NCBI GenBank assembly: GCA_949287505.1
Contig: CASEGX010000015.1
Location: 1-55,670, forward strand
Direction of reading: 5' to 3'
From: an uncultured Spirochaetales bacterium
Lineage (GTDB): Bacteria > Spirochaetota > Spirochaetia > Sphaerochaetales > Sphaerochaetaceae
DNA length: 55,670 nt
Below the pieces are notes generated by a model, which searched no databases, was not told the origin of the DNA, and saw only the letters and a list, made by a program, of their open reading frames with translations. Made by a program: the position numbers and the translations under genes. This document shows, piece by piece, positions 2,649 through 39,955 of the stretch; within the stretch, counting starts at the first letter, position 1; each line of letters opens with the position of its first letter.

Positions 2649-5600
2649 ATGAAGAGAATAGCAAGATTTGCGTTATACGCGTTGATTATAGCACTGGCAG
2701 TTGCCTGTGCAGCTGACCCTGTAAGAACAGTAAACCAGCAGCTCTATCCATATCTTGTCGTAAATACATCAGGAGAGATAAGAGTCGCAAAGGGAGCCGC
2801 GCTTACAGATCTTATTATCCCGGATGATGTGTATATCGACGGGAAGAACACAGCGACAGTATTCGTCGGCTTCCAGGATGAAGCGGACAAAGTGAACCTT
2901 AAGAGCGTCACGATAGGAAGCGGAATCACGGACATCGGGGCAAATGCATTCAAGGAGGCAGAAAGCCTTGAGAGTGTCACCTTCGAGAAAGGCTCCGAGC
3001 TTGAGATGATAGGAAGCTCTGCATTCCAGAATACAGGCCTTGTGTCTGTTGTCCTTCCTGATACTCCTGTCATCATCGGAGAAAATGCTTTCACAGGCAA
3101 TGAGGCGCTTGAAAGCGTGGATCTCGGGGGAACAAAGGAAGTCGGAAAGGGAGCATTCAGTGGAAATGCATCTCTTACCAATGTTGATTTCGGCTCCGTC
3201 TCCACAATAGGCGATGAAGCGTTCATGAATACAGGTCTTTACGATGTGAAGCTTCCTGAGACTCCGGTTATCATCGGGGAGAATGCATTCAATGGCAATG
3301 AGAACCTCCAGAGCGTCGATCTCGGTGGAACAACAGAGGTCGGAAATGGTGCATTCGGTGGAAATGCATCGCTTTCTTCTGTTGATTTCGGAAGTGTATC
3401 TGTAATCGGAGATGATGCTTTCAAGAACACCGGACTTACTGAGGTTGTCCTTCCAGAGGATTCTCCTGTAACGATTGGAAAAGGCGCATTCAGCGAGAAT
3501 AATGCACTCCAGAGTGTGGATCTCGGAGGAACCACGGAAATCGGGGATGGCGCATTCGAGAACAGCAGTTCCCTTTCCAAAGTGGACTTCGGTGATACAG
3601 ACGAGATTGGGAAGAATGCCTTCAAAGGAACGGATCTCGGCCCATCGATCGTAATACCTTCAACAGTTGGTTCCATAAGTGCCGGCGCATTCCAGGATAC
3701 AGGAATCATCGATGTCACAATAAACGGTGGAAGCACAGGTGTATCAAACACTGCATTTGACAAGAACATCGTCTCTCTTGATATCCCGGCGAATATGACG
3801 GATGAGATTTCCAAGTTCGGCGATAATATAAAGACCCTCTGGGTATGGGGTGGAGGAAGCAAGGGAAATACCGTTGATGCAGCCGTCAATTCCCTCAAGA
3901 ACCTCCAGAGTGTCTATATCTACAACACAGAGACAATAGAGTCTGGTGCTTTCAATGGCCTCTCATCACTTACCAATGTAACCCTTGGCTCAGGACTTGA
4001 GACAATCGGAAAGAATGCCTTTACGGGAACCGGGGCAGCAACAGCTGAGAATCCGGTCGTTCTACCTGCAACTGTGACAGATGCCAAAGATGCGTTTGAT
4101 GCAGATGATCATGTCTCTCAGAAATTCGAAATCATCATCGGTGGTATCCATGCAGATGAGTTCACGCTTAAAGTATGGCCTGCAGGACAGGCTGATAAAA
4201 CAAACATCGCAGATCTCATAGCCGAAGCCGTTAAGAGTGTAACAGCAGGTAATAACAACAAGTACGTTGATGGTGTCACAGCACCTGCAAAAAATGATGG
4301 GAAATCCACATATCATCAGGATGAATACATGGATCTTGCTGATGTGACCATCAATGCGGTTCTTCCTGGTACTTACGAGGCTTCAGAAGGAAAGGAGCAG
4401 CAGCAGTACACGACAAGCGGTATCATCAATGTCGATGTGCTTGACAGAAGCATCGATTTCACGAAAACAGGTTCTGTTGGTCTTGTTGAGGGAAATACAA
4501 GCACATCAGTTGAAATTCCTCTTGAGTATCGCGGCGATAAGATCACCACGATTGCCGATAACGGTTTCCAGGGCAATGTCAGTGTAATCATTCCGGAAGG
4601 CAACGGTATAGAAAATATCGGAACCGGAGCGTTCCAGGGTAACACTGCATTCGACAGCGAGAACTTCGATAACCTTTTCAAAGGAAACGAAGACAACGAG
4701 AACAAGACCGTTGTAATCGGCGACGATGCATTCAATGGTGCGACAGGTATAACTGAGGAAAAAGAGGATGGTAAGCAGCACCTTGTAATTCCTGGCAATG
4801 CTGCATCCATCGGTAGCGGTGCATTCCAGAACACAGGAGCTGAGGTTATAACGATTCCACAGCCATCTGCAGGAAATACGGATCGTACCTTTGCTGAAGG
4901 CGCTTTCGGCCCATCTGACACGCTGCAGGAAGTCATCGTAGAAGGTCCTGCTTCAGGGCTTACTGGAAAGGATATCGCAGATGCTTTTGGTGCTCCGAAC
5001 AATAATGTGACGAAGCTCACGGTCCCTGCAGATGCAGTTGATACTCCTGATGAGATTGCAGCGCTTAAAGAGGCTTTTCCGTATCTTGAAGAGCTTGTCG
5101 TAACTCCAGGTACTGGATCCAATGGTACCATCTCCGGCCTTGAAGGCTGGGATTCCCTTGATAAGGTCGATCTTTCAGAGAGTGGAATCACAGAAATCGG
5201 AAATAATGCTTTCAAGGGCACTGGTGTACAGGAAGTTATCTTCCCTGACACTCTTCAGACAATCGGAGAAAGTGCATTCGAAGGCTGCGATGAGCTGATA
5301 TCAATCGGCACAGCAGATAATGATGGAAATGTCGAAGTAAGGCTTCCAGAAAGTCTTGATTCCATCGGCAATAATGCATTCAATGGTGCAGTTTCTCTTG
5401 GAAAGGAAAATGGTGACAAGACCGTTTCCGGTGGAGAGCTCAATGCAGATAGAACCGATGTTACAGGTGGTATCTTTGAAGGATTTGACGGTACTATCGG
5501 AAACGGAGCCTTTGCAGGAACAGCAATCGGACCAGAGCTGAATCTTGGTGATGTGGCATCTGTGGGAAAGGGTGCCTTTGCCGGTACGGATAAGAATAAT

Positions 5601-8600
5601 GATGGCTTCAGCGTGAAGCTTCCTACAGACTGCACGACAGACATCGACAGCTTCTTCCGTGGTGATGATGGAAAGCCTGAGTCCATATTCGTTGATGATC
5701 TTATCATCGTCGAAGGAAATAAGGACCCTGCAACAATCGGACAGCTTGCAGGAAAAGAAAATACAACTGAAGGATATGCTGACCTTGTCCTTGATAACGT
5801 CATTGTCAATAATGGTGTTTCAAACGTAGGGGAGAGCGCATTCGAAGGTGTTGGCGCAACCAGTGACAATCCACTTTCCGTCACTCTTCCTGATACAATC
5901 ACAGAAATCGGAGCAAATGCTTTCAAGGATGCTCCTCTCTCTGTTGACAATACGGGTCTTATCCAGCAGGACACGGATGGAAAGCTCATCATCAAGGACA
6001 GCAATGGAGATAGCAAGCTTCCTTCCGGCGTAACGAATATCGGAGCAGGTGCGTTCCAGAACTCCGGAGTCGTTGCAGACGAAAATGGAAACGCAATCAA
6101 TCTTGGTGAATTTATCCCAGATGATGCTAAGCTTGGCGATGATGCCCTTGCAGGCATTAATATCGGTTCATCGTTTGTCATTACAGATGACATGAACAGC
6201 CTTGATGAAATTTCGAGAGTCTATGGTGAGGACCAGACATATACAGAGGTTAAGGAACTTACTGTGCCTATTGACCTCATCAATACTGATGAAAAGGCAG
6301 CCGCCCTCAAGGATAAATTCCCGAACCTGACATCCATAACGGTGACAGGATCTGAGAACTGGCCTGCTGGCGAGTCACAGGATAAGACCATCTGCGGCAT
6401 CAGCAAATGGGGTGATACACTCACGTCGGTTGATATATCCAATAGCAATGCAGAAACAATCGGTGCCGGTGCGTTCTCAGGTCTTGATAATGTTACATCG
6501 GATAACCTCAAGCTCCCGAATACAATAACAACTGTCAAGGAGAATGCATTCAAAGGCACCGCAGCATTTGATGAGGATCACCTTGCTTCTCTTGGTAACT
6601 TAGAGACAATCGGTAACGGTGCATTTGCAAATACAGGTGTTGTTGACGAGAATAACACGCTGACAATTCCTGACAGCGTGACATCTGTGGGTACAGGCGC
6701 TTTTGCAGGTGTCGGAGGAGACTCTGCAGAGAGTGCTATAAATGTGAAATTACCATCAGATGTTTCTCAGAATATCGATGATTTCTTTACATCTGGGGAA
6801 GACCATAACAATCCTGTATTCATCGATAAGCTGACCATTACAGGTGATAACCCTGTAGGTCCTCTTGCCGGTCCTAAAGATAATTTTGCTGGTAATACAA
6901 ATCTCAGTGTCGGTGAAAAAGCAGAGCTTGTCATAAACAATATCGAGGTTTCAGGAAGTGTCACCGAGATTGCAGATAATGCCTTCAATGGCATAGGAAC
7001 AACAGGTGAAGGAACACTCACTGTAAAGCTTCCTGATTCTGTCACTTCAATTGGTGACAATGCATTTGCAAACGCCAGTTTGAAGGTTGATGCTGACGGA
7101 ATAATACTTGAAGATTCTGAAACAGATGATCCTGATAGCAACAAGCTTGTAGTCACAACTGATGAGAGTGGAAACAGTAAACTTCCTTCAGGTGTCACAA
7201 GCATCGGTGATGGTGCATTCCAGAATTCCGGTCTTGTTGCAGATAATTCAGGAAAACCGGTAGATGTCTCGGATTTCCTCAATAACAACGGAGATGGTTC
7301 AAGTATCACTAAAATAGGAGAAGACGCTTTCTCCGGAGTGAATATCGGGGACAATACAGATATTGTGATTCCTGATTCTGTCATTTCAATTGGCGACGGC
7401 GCATTTGCAGTTGTCGATGAAGAAGGCACTCCTGCTGCAGGAAAGCAGCCTGGCATAAATATAACAATCCCGGGAAATGCCATCGGAAAGCATGAGGGTG
7501 GTAGTGCTGATGATCAGGGTCTTGCTGACATTGTCCTGCCCTCTGGAGAGGAAAAACGCCCTGCATTCTTTGAGAATGTGACTGTCACTGGCGGAACTGG
7601 CGATGATGGATATACAACCGGTATACTCACAGGTTCTGCTTCTTCTGCTGGTGTAGATATCGTTATCGGAGGAAGTCTGGATTTTGGTGGAAACCTGGAA
7701 GAATTCGATGGTGATGATTTTGCATCTGTCGGTATTCCTTCCGGAGATAGCACTCTTGATGTGACCATCTCTGGAGAGCTGACTGATCTCACCGGAGATC
7801 TTTCATCAGGACCAAAGGTTGTAAATGATGATGGATCAGTTTCTGAAGAGACAGGTTCTGTATCCTTCGGAGACGGAGAAGAGGCCGTGCCTCCTGCATC
7901 TTCAATTGATGACGGTGTCTTTGAAGGAAGAGATGATATCGAAGTGCTTGTCATCCCTGCCGACATGACTCATATCGGCTCAGATGCATTCAAGAATTGT
8001 ACAAACCTGAGCGAAATCATTTTCGAGGGTCCAAGGGAAACTCCTATCACTATTGAAGACGGTGCTTTCAGTGGCTGCAGCAGTCTTGATAAGATTACAT
8101 ACCGCGAAAATGATGTGGATAAGACACCAGGTAATATCGAAAAAGGCACAGCATGGTTCCCGGAGAATACAATCGAGGGGCTCTCAGATAACGTCTTCGC
8201 AGATACAGGTTTCAAGAATGTTATCCTTTCTGATGATATAACAAGCGTTTCCGACTCTGCTTTTGATAGCGATAAGGATATCAATGTATCTGTCACCGTT
8301 CCTGTAAATGGCTTCATGAATGCAGAAAAAGGAGACAAAGATTATCCTAAATCTACAGATGTCACTTTCTCTGGTACTTGGCCTAATATGACAGATATTT
8401 CTGCGACAATTGATGGCGAGACTGTCACTGTTCCTAAGAAATATGGATATAAAGGAACATGGACAGTCGACGGTGAGTCTATCGCGATAGGAGAAGATTC
8501 TGTCTCTATTAATGGTATTACCGTCAGTGATATCGTCGCTAACAAAGGCGGAATCATCGAATGGAAGGCCAAAGAGTATGCCCTTACTGCAGGTGAAAGT

Positions 8601-10520
8601 ACGATTAATGTTACATTCGGTGATGAAATATCATGGGACAATCTTATCGGTGATATTAAGAGGACCGAAGGACATGAAATCACAGAAATCACAATTGGTA
8701 GCACCACTATAAAGAAAGGTGACTCCTTCACTCTTGAAGAGGAACTTGATGGTAATCTGAGCTTTACATTCAAAGAAGAGATTATGAAAGCAACAGTTTC
8801 CATCACAAATCCTGATGGAGAATCAACTACTGTTGATATTCAGTTTGGTGATAGCTGGGAAGAGGAACTCTCTACTGATAAGGATGTTAAATATGCTTTC
8901 GGTGATGCTGAAACAGTAAACAGTTCTGAGCTTCTTTTTGGAACAGTTACTGAAGAGCAGATTGTCAAAATCGAAGATGGTGCGACATTAAGCAGGTATT
9001 ATCCTGTAACAAAAGACGGTCAGCCTGTGTACTATAAAGAAGGATCAAGTTTGACTGGTGCATATCCATCAGACAGGTATTTCATTTCAACTGAATCTGG
9101 AAAGTCTGGATCTATCACACTTTCAGACTCTGTTCCGAAGGTTGATAATGCACCTCTTTATGTTTATGAGTATTTCACTATTACATTCGATGCAACGCAG
9201 TACGGCACTGTAAATGGCCAGCAGAGCATTAAGCGGTATTACATCAAAGATTCTTCTATAGAACCACCAACTGCTTCTTCAGGTAATAATAATCTTGAAT
9301 TCAAGCAGTGGTCGCCAACTATTGCTGTTGTTTCTAAAGATGCTACCTATACAGCTGTGTACAAATTATCTAGTTCATTGCCAGCAGGATGGCCTTCGAC
9401 AGCAGGAGAGGTTCTTATCGGTAAGAATCCAGCAACGGGAAAAGATTATACGATAGGCGATTTCCTTCCAGCAGGGACAGGAAATCTGAAGTATGCTTAC
9501 AATGTAACAAAAAAGAGTCCAGTTACTATTGATGATATCAATGCTTCAAGAAATGTTTCTACTGAAGTTCTTCTTAGTGGAACAGGCAGTATACAGTCGT
9601 ATTATGATTTGACAGGAAAAACCAATGGGGCACTCCCTGATGGTTATTATAAAGCTGGAGATAGTGTAGCGACTAATACAGGTGCAGGTTTCGATTGGTC
9701 TATCAATGGACAGACTGTTACCCCTGGAAATACTGTGACTATCACAGATCCTGCAAATATCTCAGTGACAAAAAATTATTGGAATTTTAGCATTACTTAT
9801 GGAGATCATATCTATGATATGAATGGATCTCCAACAATATTAACAGCTAGCTCGTATAAGGGTTCTGGTTATGTATACCCGAATACAATCACATATGGAG
9901 GAACATTACCTGATTTGGATAAGTTCGATTCGATTGTTTCAGAGGGAATGAGAGCCACTGGTTGGCATGTGACATATTATGGAAGTACAGGGAAGAAAAC
10001 TGCATTTAATGTAACGTCACTTCCGGTGGATATAGCTAAGGACTCTTCTGTCACAATTTGTCCTGTTTTTGAACCTAAGCTAGTGTCACTTGGTTGGATA
10101 GCACAGACAGGATCGGATGCAGCTTTAAATACAACATTTACAACTACGAGAACCAATAATGCGACATCTGCCGAATGGGGATATCCATATATTGCCGAAG
10201 GTGGACAGCTTTTCGTTTATGAAATTGGAGAATCGGAAGTAACTATCCAAATACGAAATAGCAGTGATGAAAGTAAGAATTTTACTATTGTAGTTCCTAA
10301 AGTAGATACACAGCAAAATGGATATTGGGGATGGAAGGCTTCTGCAACAGATCCAAATGCACCAGGATTCACTATTAAAAATACAGGTAGTGTCCCATAT
10401 CAGACATTCAGAAATGCCGCCCTTACAATAAGGCAGGAACTTGGTCCTGATACGGGTGCTAAAAAGTATTCATATAGTACCCTTCTTTATGCTTGGGATA
10501 GTGCAAACAGTCGTCCATGA
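2649..10520 (+). CDS. Giant BspA-like leucine-rich-repeat (LRR_5) surface lipoprotein
   Basis: The 2,623-residue product starts MKRIARFALYALIIALAVAC, a lipoprotein signal with Cys20 as the likely lipidated residue. Start and SD are clear (GGAGGGGG before ATG 2649). From about residue 70 to 1860 it is built from LRR_5/BspA units of the form (I)G..AF.....L..V.LP.., many reading IGxNAFxG or IGDGAFxN. Two higher-order duplications are visible (listed separately). The last ~700 residues lose the LRR pattern and contain InlB/Flg_new-like segments (ITFDATQYGTV...F(K)QWSP...ATYTAVYK). From about 9,000 the DNA is visibly more A/T-rich, suggesting a differently acquired C-terminal part. BspA-like proteins bind host matrix proteins or other bacteria, so adhesion is a reasonable inference. 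It probably shares a transcript with the upstream repeat protein. No homopolymer tract is present here. Confidence 0.88.
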   Translation: MKRIARFALYALIIALAVACAADPVRTVNQQLYPYLVVNTSGEIRVAKGAALTDLIIPDDVYIDGKNTATVFVGFQDEADKVNLKSVTIGSGITDIGANAFKEAESLESVTFEKGSELEMIGSSAFQNTGLVSVVLPDTPVIIGENAFTGNEALESVDLGGTKEVGKGAFSGNASLTNVDFGSVSTIGDEAFMNTGLYDVKLPETPVIIGENAFNGNENLQSVDLGGTTEVGNGAFGGNASLSSVDFGSVSVIGDDAFKNTGLTEVVLPEDSPVTIGKGAFSENNALQSVDLGGTTEIGDGAFENSSSLSKVDFGDTDEIGKNAFKGTDLGPSIVIPSTVGSISAGAFQDTGIIDVTINGGSTGVSNTAFDKNIVSLDIPANMTDEISKFGDNIKTLWVWGGGSKGNTVDAAVNSLKNLQSVYIYNTETIESGAFNGLSSLTNVTLGSGLETIGKNAFTGTGAATAENPVVLPATVTDAKDAFDADDHVSQKFEIIIGGIHADEFTLKVWPAGQADKTNIADLIAEAVKSVTAGNNNKYVDGVTAPAKNDGKSTYHQDEYMDLADVTINAVLPGTYEASEGKEQQQYTTSGIINVDVLDRSIDFTKTGSVGLVEGNTSTSVEIPLEYRGDKITTIADNGFQGNVSVIIPEGNGIENIGTGAFQGNTAFDSENFDNLFKGNEDNENKTVVIGDDAFNGATGITEEKEDGKQHLVIPGNAASIGSGAFQNTGAEVITIPQPSAGNTDRTFAEGAFGPSDTLQEVIVEGPASGLTGKDIADAFGAPNNNVTKLTVPADAVDTPDEIAALKEAFPYLEELVVTPGTGSNGTISGLEGWDSLDKVDLSESGITEIGNNAFKGTGVQEVIFPDTLQTIGESAFEGCDELISIGTADNDGNVEVRLPESLDSIGNNAFNGAVSLGKENGDKTVSGGELNADRTDVTGGIFEGFDGTIGNGAFAGTAIGPELNLGDVASVGKGAFAGTDKNNDGFSVKLPTDCTTDIDSFFRGDDGKPESIFVDDLIIVEGNKDPATIGQLAGKENTTEGYADLVLDNVIVNNGVSNVGESAFEGVGATSDNPLSVTLPDTITEIGANAFKDAPLSVDNTGLIQQDTDGKLIIKDSNGDSKLPSGVTNIGAGAFQNSGVVADENGNAINLGEFIPDDAKLGDDALAGINIGSSFVITDDMNSLDEISRVYGEDQTYTEVKELTVPIDLINTDEKAAALKDKFPNLTSITVTGSENWPAGESQDKTICGISKWGDTLTSVDISNSNAETIGAGAFSGLDNVTSDNLKLPNTITTVKENAFKGTAAFDEDHLASLGNLETIGNGAFANTGVVDENNTLTIPDSVTSVGTGAFAGVGGDSAESAINVKLPSDVSQNIDDFFTSGEDHNNPVFIDKLTITGDNPVGPLAGPKDNFAGNTNLSVGEKAELVINNIEVSGSVTEIADNAFNGIGTTGEGTLTVKLPDSVTSIGDNAFANASLKVDADGIILEDSETDDPDSNKLVVTTDESGNSKLPSGVTSIGDGAFQNSGLVADNSGKPVDVSDFLNNNGDGSSITKIGEDAFSGVNIGDNTDIVIPDSVISIGDGAFAVVDEEGTPAAGKQPGINITIPGNAIGKHEGGSADDQGLADIVLPSGEEKRPAFFENVTVTGGTGDDGYTTGILTGSASSAGVDIVIGGSLDFGGNLEEFDGDDFASVGIPSGDSTLDVTISGELTDLTGDLSSGPKVVNDDGSVSEETGSVSFGDGEEAVPPASSIDDGVFEGRDDIEVLVIPADMTHIGSDAFKNCTNLSEIIFEGPRETPITIEDGAFSGCSSLDKITYRENDVDKTPGNIEKGTAWFPENTIEGLSDNVFADTGFKNVILSDDITSVSDSAFDSDKDINVSVTVPVNGFMNAEKGDKDYPKSTDVTFSGTWPNMTDISATIDGETVTVPKKYGYKGTWTVDGESIAIGEDSVSINGITVSDIVANKGGIIEWKAKEYALTAGESTINVTFGDEISWDNLIGDIKRTEGHEITEITIGSTTIKKGDSFTLEEELDGNLSFTFKEEIMKATVSITNPDGESTTVDIQFGDSWEEELSTDKDVKYAFGDAETVNSSELLFGTVTEEQIVKIEDGATLSRYYPVTKDGQPVYYKEGSSLTGAYPSDRYFISTESGKSGSITLSDSVPKVDNAPLYVYEYFTITFDATQYGTVNGQQSIKRYYIKDSSIEPPTASSGNNNLEFKQWSPTIAVVSKDATYTAVYKLSSSLPAGWPSTAGEVLIGKNPATGKDYTIGDFLPAGTGNLKYAYNVTKKSPVTIDDINASRNVSTEVLLSGTGSIQSYYDLTGKTNGALPDGYYKAGDSVATNTGAGFDWSINGQTVTPGNTVTITDPANISVTKNYWNFSITYGDHIYDMNGSPTILTASSYKGSGYVYPNTITYGGTLPDLDKFDSIVSEGMRATGWHVTYYGSTGKKTAFNVTSLPVDIAKDSSVTICPVFEPKLVSLGWIAQTGSDAALNTTFTTTRTNNATSAEWGYPYIAEGGQLFVYEIGESEVTIQIRNSSDESKNFTIVVPKVDTQQNGYWGWKASATDPNAPGFTIKNTGSVPYQTFRNAALTIRQELGPDTGAKKYSYSTLLYAWDSANSRP
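3064..3660 (+). repeat. Three tandem ~200-bp units in the BspA-like gene
   Basis: Units beginning near 3064, 3262 and 3466 each encode about 66-68 residues of the order IG(E/K)xAFxxNxxLxSVDLGGT, then (E)(V/I)GxGAF, then VDFGxxxxIGxxAFxxT. They are diverged copies of a three-LRR block, so duplication is not very recent. Confidence 0.75.
5012..7400 (+). repeat. Two ~1.2-kb (about 414-residue) super-repeats in the BspA-like gene
   Basis: The block beginning LTVPADAVDTPDE (near 5012) is repeated from LTVPIDLINTDEK (near 6255). Landmarks recur in order: an AALK(E/D)xFP element, a G(L/I)xxW line, IGNGAFA, an IDxFF element, a G(P/Q)LAG element, and SKLPSGVT(N/S)IG(A/D)GAFQNSG. This implies a duplication of a composite module about 1,243 bp long, followed by divergence. 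Confidence 0.72.
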
Positions 10521-31068: not shown

Positions 31069-31107
31069 ACACAGGGGCTGCTTCGAACAGCCCCTGTGTT
31101 TGTTTCA
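31069..31107 (+). terminator. Strong terminator between convergent genes
   Basis: ACACAGGGGCTG at 31069-31080 pairs perfectly with 31088-31099 over a seven-base loop and is followed by TTGTTTC. It ends the sugar-acid operon. The symmetric stem may also help end the convergent lipoprotein transcript, whose stop is at 31105. Confidence 0.85.
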
Positions 31108-33283
31108 GGACTCAGGATACCAGGCTGAAACCCTTATATCCGTCTCTCCTGTGTCCCTGTTCCTTGTGAGGCGGAATATCCTTCCTTCAACTGTTATATC
31201 ATGGCCATCCCAGGCCGCGGATTCTGAGAATTCAAGCTGCCCAATGCCTCCTCCGATTGCCGGAATTCCATGGAAAGTGCCGTTTTCTATCACAAGGCCA
31301 CCCCATGCGGTATTCGGCCCGATGATTCCTGCAGTTCCGAGATCCGTGTATGAGTCGCCATTGTCATCATCGATACTCACACTCGATGCATCCTCTCTGG
31401 AAGGGGAGTTGTAGACAGCACCGAACAGCCGTCCGCTGTATCCGAAGTACGAAGTGTAGGTGTTGTCACCAGAGATTATTTCTTCTTCCGCCATTTCTCC
31501 TGTTGTTATCGGCGCCTTTCCCGCGGAGCAGGCGATGACAGCATTCTTTCCCTGAAGATTTCCTGCGATGCCTCCCGCGTACTTCTCACCGTGAACAGAG
31601 GCAGTGTTTATCGCACCTCTTACTGTGATATTGTTCATTGATCCTGCGATGCCACCTGCAGAGGAGGCAGATGTCACCTCGCCGCTGTTCTTTGCGCCGT
31701 TTATAACGAAATTCGTTCCATACCCGATTATTCCGCCAGTGTCCTGTGTTCCCCTGACTGTTCCACTGTTTACCGCAACAGACATCGAATAATGCTTGTT
31801 TTCCTCATCTGTACCTGAAGCGTAGCCGACAATGCCTCCTGTGAATCTCTTTCCATCAACAGTGCCGGAATTCCCGACATTCTCGATTGTGATATTATTC
31901 GAGGCATAACCGAGGATTCCTCCGTTTCCATCATTGCCGTCGGATACTGTTCCTGTATTCGTGCAATCCTCTATGACAGTGCTTGCAGTCGCATTGTTTA
32001 TTGCGGCGATACCTCCGACCTTCTTCTCGCCGGATATTGAGCCGGCATTGCTGCAGCCGGAGATGGTGGCAGAACCGCTTCCATATATTCTGGCAATGAT
32101 TCCTGCTGCAGCCTGTGCACCATGGACAGAGGCTTTATTGTGGCAGTTCGTTATTGCTGAGACTCCTCCTTCCTCATCCATTGTCGCACCGATGATTCCT
32201 CCTGCGGTGTCTCCGTTGTCAGTAACACTTCCGCTTTCAAGCGTAAGATTGCTGATGGAAGCATTTGCGATGACTCCGAAAAGTCCGGAAACGCTGTTGT
32301 CAGTCTCTTCCATCTGGTTGATGAAGAGGTTGCTTATTGTATGGTCCTGGCCGTCAAAGGAACCTCTGAAATATCTGGAAGAGGCGGTCCCGTCTCTTGT
32401 AGGAGCTCCGATAGGAGTCCATTCAAGATTGTTCAGATCGATATCTGCGGCGAGGAGGATCTTCTTCCCTGTGAAATCCGTTTCATCCTCAACGAGCTTT
32501 GCAAGACCTGCAAGCTGCTCTGCCGTCTTCAGTGTGTACTCTGTCTTTGCCGCATCGTACCAGGTGGTGTCTGCGTTCCCGTTCCAGGGTGTCTCTATGA
32601 CAATGGGATTCCTGTTGCCGTCGACTGTAATCGATACACCGCCATTGATTGTGACTTCATCCTCATCCGGAACACTTTCGAACTTCACGCTTATTGCTGC
32701 AGAAGCGGCATCCTCTGTATATGTGAGCTTGAAGCTGCCATCATCTGTCCTGCCGCTTATAGCCTCGGCATCTACGGTGTATGTCCTGCTGTTCCTGCCG
32801 CTTCCCTGAGTGAATTCAAGCCTGTTAACTTCAGCAGTATATTCGTTGAGAGTGGCAGTATGGATGTCCCCGTCTACAATGACTGACCCAGTGAAAATGA
32901 ATACGATTGATCCGTTGTCTATCGAATCTATGGCAGTTCCGATAAGCCCTTTCCCACGGTAGCCGTCTGAAAAGCTTACAATGGCCTTGAGTGCAGTGTC
33001 TTCGATTGCTGTTATGGAAAAGCTTCTTGTTGCTGTTCTTGCTGCCGTTTCCCACTTGACGGACATTCCTTCGGGAGGAGCCCCAAGCTCGGAAACGATT
33101 CCAGGAATATTCAGTGCTTCTGCAACTTCCTCGTCTGACAGTCTCTCTGGACGATCAGTGTCTGGGAAGAATGGTGGATACCCCCCCCCAGTACGTCTCA
33201 TTCTGGCATCCTGTCGCTAAAAATAGGCTGCACAGAATGGTCAGCAGCATTATGCTGATGGATATGAAATTCTTCCTTTTCAT
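31105..33283 (-). CDS. GLUG-repeat surface lipoprotein with a coding G9 tract (phase-variable candidate, OFF as sequenced)
   Basis: The main frame opens only near 33201 and lacks a signal peptide, but an ATG at 33281-33283 with AAAAAGGA upstream encodes MKRKNFISISIMLLTILCSL followed by FLATGC, a spirochaete-type lipobox with Cys26. Six residues later comes the G9 run (33181-33189). With nine G the signal sequence runs out of frame; with eight (or eleven) it joins the 31105 frame as ...NETYWGG-YPPFF, giving about 725 residues. After a ~220-residue Ig-like or beta-rich part, the body consists of GLUG-type repeats (GGI(I/A)G...., S/N.G.V.G) from about residue 300 to 630, as in many gut and oral surface proteins. 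Surface display and adhesion are inferred. No homopolymer other than the G-tract breaks it. Confidence 0.82.
33181..33189 (-). repeat. C9 (coding-strand G9) tract just after the lipobox of the GLUG lipoprotein
   Basis: Nine C on the plus strand read as G9 in the gene. The tract begins six codons after the lipidated Cys and is followed by TAT. Thirty-one codons plus one base precede it, so 8 or 11 G keep the frame and 9 breaks it. Homopolymers of this length are hypermutable by slipped-strand mispairing in many bacteria. Confidence 0.88.
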
Positions 33284-39474: not shown

Positions 39475-39955
39475 TCACATAGGAACAACAATGTTCTCGT
39501 AGAGCTTTCCATTGATGGTAAGCGTTACTTTGTCATTTCCTTCAGAGCTCAGATTCGTCGGGAAGAAGCCGTCGATGGAGAATGTATGGCCTCCGATTGA
39601 GATAATGACGTTCTGTATGTCATATCCGAATTTTGAATAATCAACCACAAGCTTTCCGTCCAGTACGATATCAAGGCCATAGACCTCAGCTGTTCCATTT
39701 TCGATTGTAATTACTTCGCCGTCCGCAGGCTTTCCCTCAAAATTTGCTGCCTGTGATACTGCGTTGTAGAAGAAGTATACGATTGCACTTGGATCAAGTA
39801 CGTGCCCATCGATTTCCGTCTCTCCGACTATTCCCGTGATCTCTTCCGGAGTGGATGGCTCCTCTCCTTTGTTATCAATACCCCCCCCCGTTGGGACTGC
39901 ATGCGATGCCGAAGAACATCATGGCTGCCAACAAAACAATAAAGAGTTTTTTCAT
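39475..39955 (-). CDS. Small lipoprotein with a coding G9 tract (phase-variable candidate, OFF as sequenced)
   Basis: ATG at 39953-39955 with AAGGAG upstream begins MKKLFIVLLAAMMFFGIAC, a lipoprotein signal with Cys19, then SPN and the G9 run. As sequenced it continues GGGY and stops (26 residues). With eight G the frame continues GGGIDNKGEEPSTPEE and stays open for about 135 further codons to TGA at 39475-39477, ending NIVVPM, for about 159 residues in total. The mature part is acidic and beta-rich (INGKLYENIVV, DGKLVVDYSKFGYD); I recognise no domain. It is convergent with the DUF92 gene, one base from its stop, and upstream of groEL on the other strand. The open frame after the tract supports a real gene rather than a decayed one. 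Confidence 0.75.
39881..39889 (-). repeat. C9 (coding-strand G9) tract four codons after the lipidated Cys of the small lipoprotein
   Basis: Twenty-two codons precede the tract, ending Cys-Ser-Pro-Asn. G8 or G11 gives the full protein and G9 gives a TGA five bases downstream. The downstream context TAT is the same as at the GLUG lipoprotein tract. Confidence 0.88.

Follow-up and report, generated by a model that had tools for sequence, protein, structure and literature searches.

Two unrelated lipoproteins encoded in one stretch of DNA carry a run of nine guanines shortly after the cysteine predicted to be lipidated, which raises the question of what these tracts do and why they lie at this site. 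The stretch (the window) comprises 55,670 nucleotides from an uncultured Spirochaetales bacterium. Both G9 tracts are very probably contingency-locus switches that act by slipped-strand phase variation, and both genes are part of a set of poly-G-switched lipoproteins that spans the genus. The first gene (31105..33283, minus strand), assigned by frame reconstruction, Pfam, and its homologues, codes for a GLUG-repeat-like lipoprotein. From the ATG start codon (33283-33281) it reads through the lipoprotein signal peptide MKRKNFISISIMLLTILCSLFLATGC (33206..33283, minus strand, recognized from the sequence and with a lipobox classifier), which ends at Cys26 of the lipobox ATGC (Cys26 codon 33208-33206), and then through QNETY, the G9 tract (33181..33189, +6 from Cys26), and TAT. 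We call the body GLUG-like rather than a member of the GLUG family, since its score against the Pfam Glug profile (PF07581) was 14.5 bits, below the gathering threshold of 20.5. The second gene (39475..39955, minus strand), which gave no match in the comparison with Pfam profiles, codes for a small lipoprotein recognized through syntenic orthologues in two congeners. Its ATG (39955-39953) opens the signal peptide MKKLFIVLLAAMMFFGIAC (39899..39955), ending in Cys19 (codon 39901-39899); SPN follows, then the G9 tract (39881..39889, +4 from Cys19, directly after CSPN), and again TAT. This residue order is the one given for both genes in the original prediction, whose span of 33181-33283 takes in the first gene only, the second being at about 39475-39955. 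By the sequence rule, both products have the basic n-region, hydrophobic core, and lipobox cysteine of bacterial lipoproteins, lipidation itself being predicted.

As assembled, both genes are OFF. At G9, the GLUG-like frame stops after 42 codons and the small lipoprotein reads ...CSPNGGGY followed by a stop, so the truncation is as immediate as had been expected for an OFF state. In silico, G8 or G11 gives 725 or 726 amino acids for the first gene and 159 or 160 for the second; a change of one unit therefore toggles the full-length product, ON at G8/G11 and OFF at G9/G10, as in the frame switch that had been proposed. Each species is represented by one assembly, and the length of nine, coming from a metagenome-derived assembly, may reflect a consensus or an assembly error.

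Neither G9 tract of the window genes is a chance run, and both are long enough for a contingency locus. The window plus related contigs (277,772 bases) contain 814, 121, 8, 1, 0, and 2 G or C runs of lengths 4, 5, 6, 7, 8, and 9, and both runs of nine are the tracts of the two window genes. At 2.29 Mb in 122 contigs and 92% completeness, the window genome contains 25 distinct tracts of G8 or longer; the genus average is about 13 per genome, so that one clone could present many surface combinations. Across 36 genomes of the genus, long runs are in excess, with 477 tracts of G8 or longer versus 199 of exactly G7. Other families of the same class show the usual order (1163 versus 2936 in 24 genomes).

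To find which genes carry tracts, we took all 169 distinct tracts of G8 or longer from eight genomes, that of the window and those of seven congeners, and classified them by one fixed rule: a start codon with a Shine-Dalgarno sequence, a basic n-region, a hydrophobic stretch, and a lipobox cysteine, with a frame shift by one allowed. The positions and frames of the tracts, their enrichment at lipoproteins, their conservation in orthologues, and their length differences between species were all computed here. By this simple rule, used for signal peptides in place of a trained predictor, 122 of the 169 tracts (72%) are linked to lipoproteins, i.e., at least 122 switches in the eight genomes. They comprise 86 tracts in lipoprotein leaders and 36 within the first 60 codons of lipoprotein ORFs; a further 8 lie in other ORFs and 39 are unassigned, some of them at contig ends. 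Random 9-mer positions were called lipoprotein in 103 of 3000 cases (3.4%), and in three other families none of the 30 G9 tracts taken was linked to a lipoprotein. Scanning deeper brought in a few more tracts farther inside lipoprotein ORFs and one extra case after the cysteine (L261, +6, at a contig end). The window genes are not the only two of their kind, 15 genes having their tract after the cysteine. Not all large lipoproteins here are switched, since the window also codes (2649-10520, plus strand) for a 2623-aa BspA-type leucine-rich-repeat lipoprotein (MKRIARFALYALIIALAVAC) without a G-tract of 8 or more.

Among the 36 lipoprotein genes with a tract in the ORF, 24 are OFF and 12 ON as assembled. 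Since both window genes are likewise out of frame, one could see here nothing but decay, the frameshifts being ordinary pseudogene lesions in chance long G-runs. We consider this very improbable. Two-thirds OFF is the expectation for a three-state frame, the remaining third of the genes are ON, and runs of 6-7 are rare, those of 8-10 common. Moreover, the reading frame stays open for about 690 codons past the tract in the GLUG-like gene and about 135 in the small lipoprotein gene, so that in both window genes the coding sequence is maintained on both sides of the tract. The GLUG-like gene has homologues in three congeners (37-41% identity), with differences greatest at codon position 3; for both window genes against their homologues, differences are 0.63-0.70 at position 3 versus 0.29-0.44 at positions 1 and 2, so that both bodies are under purifying selection despite their OFF assembled alleles. 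The syntenic orthologues of the small lipoprotein (in genomes G023 and G009, both adjoining the same DUF92 gene) have the tract at the identical codon after CSPN, as an in-frame G8 in one (L252) and as G10 in the other (L189), against G9 in the window gene. The tract is therefore kept and its length varies between species, as in a contingency locus. The best homologues of the GLUG-like gene (L174, L166, and L158; E values of 1e-41 to 1e-56) have theirs in the n-region, ahead of the signal core; a further one (L058, from genome G028) has a tract upstream of the start. The site of the tract in orthologues hence gives a split answer, because one gene keeps its position and the other does not.

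Relative to the lipobox cysteine, 17 in-ORF tracts fall at -24 to -10, none at -9 to +3, 15 at +4 to +14, and 3 at +15 to +40, these three at +25 to +40 (n = 35, one misassigned leader tract, L170, being left out), a distribution far from uniform (chi-square 38.3, p = 2e-8). None of the 35 tracts in the eight genomes is found in the hydrophobic core or the lipobox. Fifteen genes have the tract within about 14 residues after the cysteine, versus 5.8 expected if positions were uniform; this is a real and recurrent site, but it is one of three. The suggestion that placement after the cysteine is selected agrees with this excess and with the conserved codon in the small-lipoprotein orthologues. 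The same placement as a special design does not hold, tracts in the n-region being as many and those in promoters or leaders more than twice as many. Likewise, Gly-Gly-Gly as a tolerated linker applies in part only, since 11 of the 36 in-ORF tracts are C-runs that code for proline.

For the GLUG-like gene, the tract could also be a localization switch. The ORF 31105-33201 is open at G9, and translation from its internal ATG (33201), which has the Shine-Dalgarno-like AGGA 7 nt upstream, could give a leaderless protein of 698 aa in place of an OFF state. Such a switch is most unlikely, given that the other 14 genes with tracts after the cysteine lack a consistent out-of-frame start with a Shine-Dalgarno sequence, only the pair on L042 having one.

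The L042 pair are two neighboring paralogous lipoproteins (L042:3258 and 3901) with C9 tracts that code for proline 13-14 residues past the lipobox cysteine, and a third lipoprotein nearby (L042:13522) has a C8 tract in its n-region. Tract-bearing lipoproteins with dissimilar bodies often begin with C-[TQR]-[QN]-[YR]..., and a proline-rich stretch, P-x-PP or PP-x-F, comes no more than about 12 residues later (CTQYRFIPVFPP, CRNQYIPIPPYFF). This start after the cysteine may act in sorting or as a tether.

Leader tracts have the consensus TTGACA-N10-G(8-11)-TAGNCT, which, judged by its motifs, matches a putative -35/-10 pair with the tract in its spacer, as in tp0126 of Treponema pallidum. Of 21 genus genomes searched, most contain the pattern TTGACA-N9..11-G6+-TAGNCT, against 1 of 14 outside the genus; its reversed form gave no matches in the same search. 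The best total spacing between -35 and -10 at tp0126 is 17 nt (PMC7864442). The corresponding G7 form was not found in the genus, every promoter tract found being G8 or longer; G8 gives a spacing of 18 nt and the common G9 one of 19 nt. We infer that the promoter ON state is G8. The possibility that in-ORF tracts are hidden promoters was rejected, as the T of the -10 element is at +6 in 78 of 86 promoter-class tracts but in only 5 of 25 of the in-ORF G class.

Lipobox, short linker, G9, and TAT come in the same order in both window genes, which had suggested a shuffled cassette of lipoprotein signal plus G-tract set on unrelated bodies. For this pair the idea is refuted: their signals differ, and we found no DNA similarity between them around the tract (local score 11, reached in 74 of 300 shuffles), so the two genes have no common cassette of signal and tract. 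In addition, the closest relatives of the GLUG-like body carry an n-region tract, and, promoter-type families aside, the only clusters that in-ORF tracts form are of close paralogues or orthologues. A cassette fits better with six paralogous lipoprotein genes of the window genome (L034, L036, L043, L045, L046, and L048), which have the tract and a common promoter, leader, and signal (mean DNA identities of 73%, 69%, and 78%, respectively). Outside these parts, DNA identity among the six falls to roughly that of shuffled sequence, with 52% in the upstream flank and 52-54% in the body past codon ~75, and the protein bodies are mostly 24-34% identical over long alignments. This other lipoprotein family of the window genome is the only one with a genuine module of promoter, tract, and signal. 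As an account that includes both window genes and makes the site after the cysteine a special design, the shuffled cassette has very little probability.

The TAT after both window tracts is a genus-wide context and not the mark of a cassette. Read on the G strand, tracts usually stand in [CT]-G(8-12)-T-A, whatever their class or the orientation of the gene. TA follows 82 of 86 leader tracts, 19 of 25 G-oriented and 7 of 11 C-oriented in-ORF tracts, and 6 of 8 tracts in other ORFs (these counts are not fully independent, as some of the tracts share descent). After G4-G6 runs of the same DNA it was found in 59 of 942 cases, and its share by run length goes from 5-6% at 3-5 and 15% at 6 to 71-86% at 8-12. 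In three other families TA followed none of 30 tracts; among 30 tracts from three genomes of a second spirochaete family, 17 had TA and 11 were linked to lipoproteins. In promoter tracts TA would be part of the -10 element, which explains promoters only. A role as an immediate stop in the OFF frame was discarded, because it would need TAA, present at about one-third of in-ORF G tracts, would serve one frame, and is inapplicable to C-oriented tracts. As TA also flanks these, neither stop codons nor the -10 element accounts for it. Tentatively, and with considerable doubt, we suggest that the tracts carry their own context and were born or kept by a sequence-specific process, either slippage-prone or enzyme-recognized, rather than by random growth of G-runs. 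If the common TA flank is real, the origin of contingency tracts becomes testable.

Phase variation at these loci would begin with DNA polymerase slipping on the G-run within a population, shifting its length by one or more bases and moving the reading frame after the lipobox in or out. A cell with G8 or G11 would then make the whole lipoprotein, and one with G9 or G10 a useless short lipopeptide; in leader tracts, the change would alter the -35/-10 distance and, by analogy with T. pallidum, probably promoter activity. The three sites (promoter spacer, n-region of the signal, and first residues past the cysteine presumed to be lipidated) spare the hydrophobic core and the lipobox. Such early placement should let the ON protein absorb length steps (GGG or PPP) with export and lipidation intact, and should make OFF complete. 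As in the known systems, the products may be surface exposed and the switching may serve antigenic or adhesive diversity.

The kind of switch is already known from Treponema pallidum, Mycoplasma, and Neisseria. In the Mycoplasma bovis P68 and M. agalactiae P48-like and spma lipoproteins, a poly-G of 8-13 is found at the 5' end of the gene, and a one-base change puts signal peptide and lipobox back in frame; the spma genes have it in the 5' untranslated region, with a common leader on variable bodies (PMC2824730). The position at the 5' end of lipoprotein genes is thus similar, and the spma layout is that of the six-gene module described above. The phylum, however, is different, and here we found many genes per genome, tracts after the cysteine, and C-runs besides G-runs. 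In T. pallidum, tp0126 and tpr genes have poly-G in the promoters of surface protein genes, between -35 and -10 in tp0126, with lengths of 7-11, mostly 9 at tprL (PMC7864442). Our leader class has the same arrangement, but the targets there are outer-membrane proteins, whereas here they are lipoproteins, and about one-third of the tracts linked to them fall within the ORF. The surface lipoprotein gene hpuA of Neisseria resembles ours in its in-ORF poly-G, through which it is phase-varied, but it is a single locus (PMC3786947, PMC3783016).

The window phosphoglucose isomerase shares 88% identity with its counterpart in an uncultured 'Spirochaetaceae' metagenome assembly, with Spiro_01 and Candidatus Aphodenecus lower in the list; neither lipoprotein is present at the phosphoglucose isomerase loci fetched from relatives. 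In open papers we found no report of a large lipoprotein-directed set of poly-G switches in these spirochaetes, and nothing on Sphaerochaeta and phase variation. The present set is large, aimed specifically at lipoproteins, and found in an uncultured spirochaete genus related to Candidatus Aphodenecus and Spiro_01. Annotation can easily mistake genes switched by tracts for pseudogenes or truncated peptides, and the placement rule (promoter, n-region, or +4 to +14 after the cysteine, but not core or lipobox) provides a simple search rule for other genomes.

Some tracts belong to other kinds of genes. A PapD-type chaperone-like protein is a non-lipoprotein target of a like switch: in each of four species (L039:3355, L254:966, L263:942, and L288:947), a tract of G8-G11 precedes its called start by 36-82 bases. 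The L039 protein matches Pfam PapD_N (E value of 2e-7). Two adjoining tail-fiber/collar-like genes (L047:3145 and 4407), by eye apparently part of a prophage, have G10 and G9 near codon 23-26, in frame as assembled, and genome G004 has a near-identical gene with G10 (L279:981). The product is possibly a phase-variable phage tail protein.
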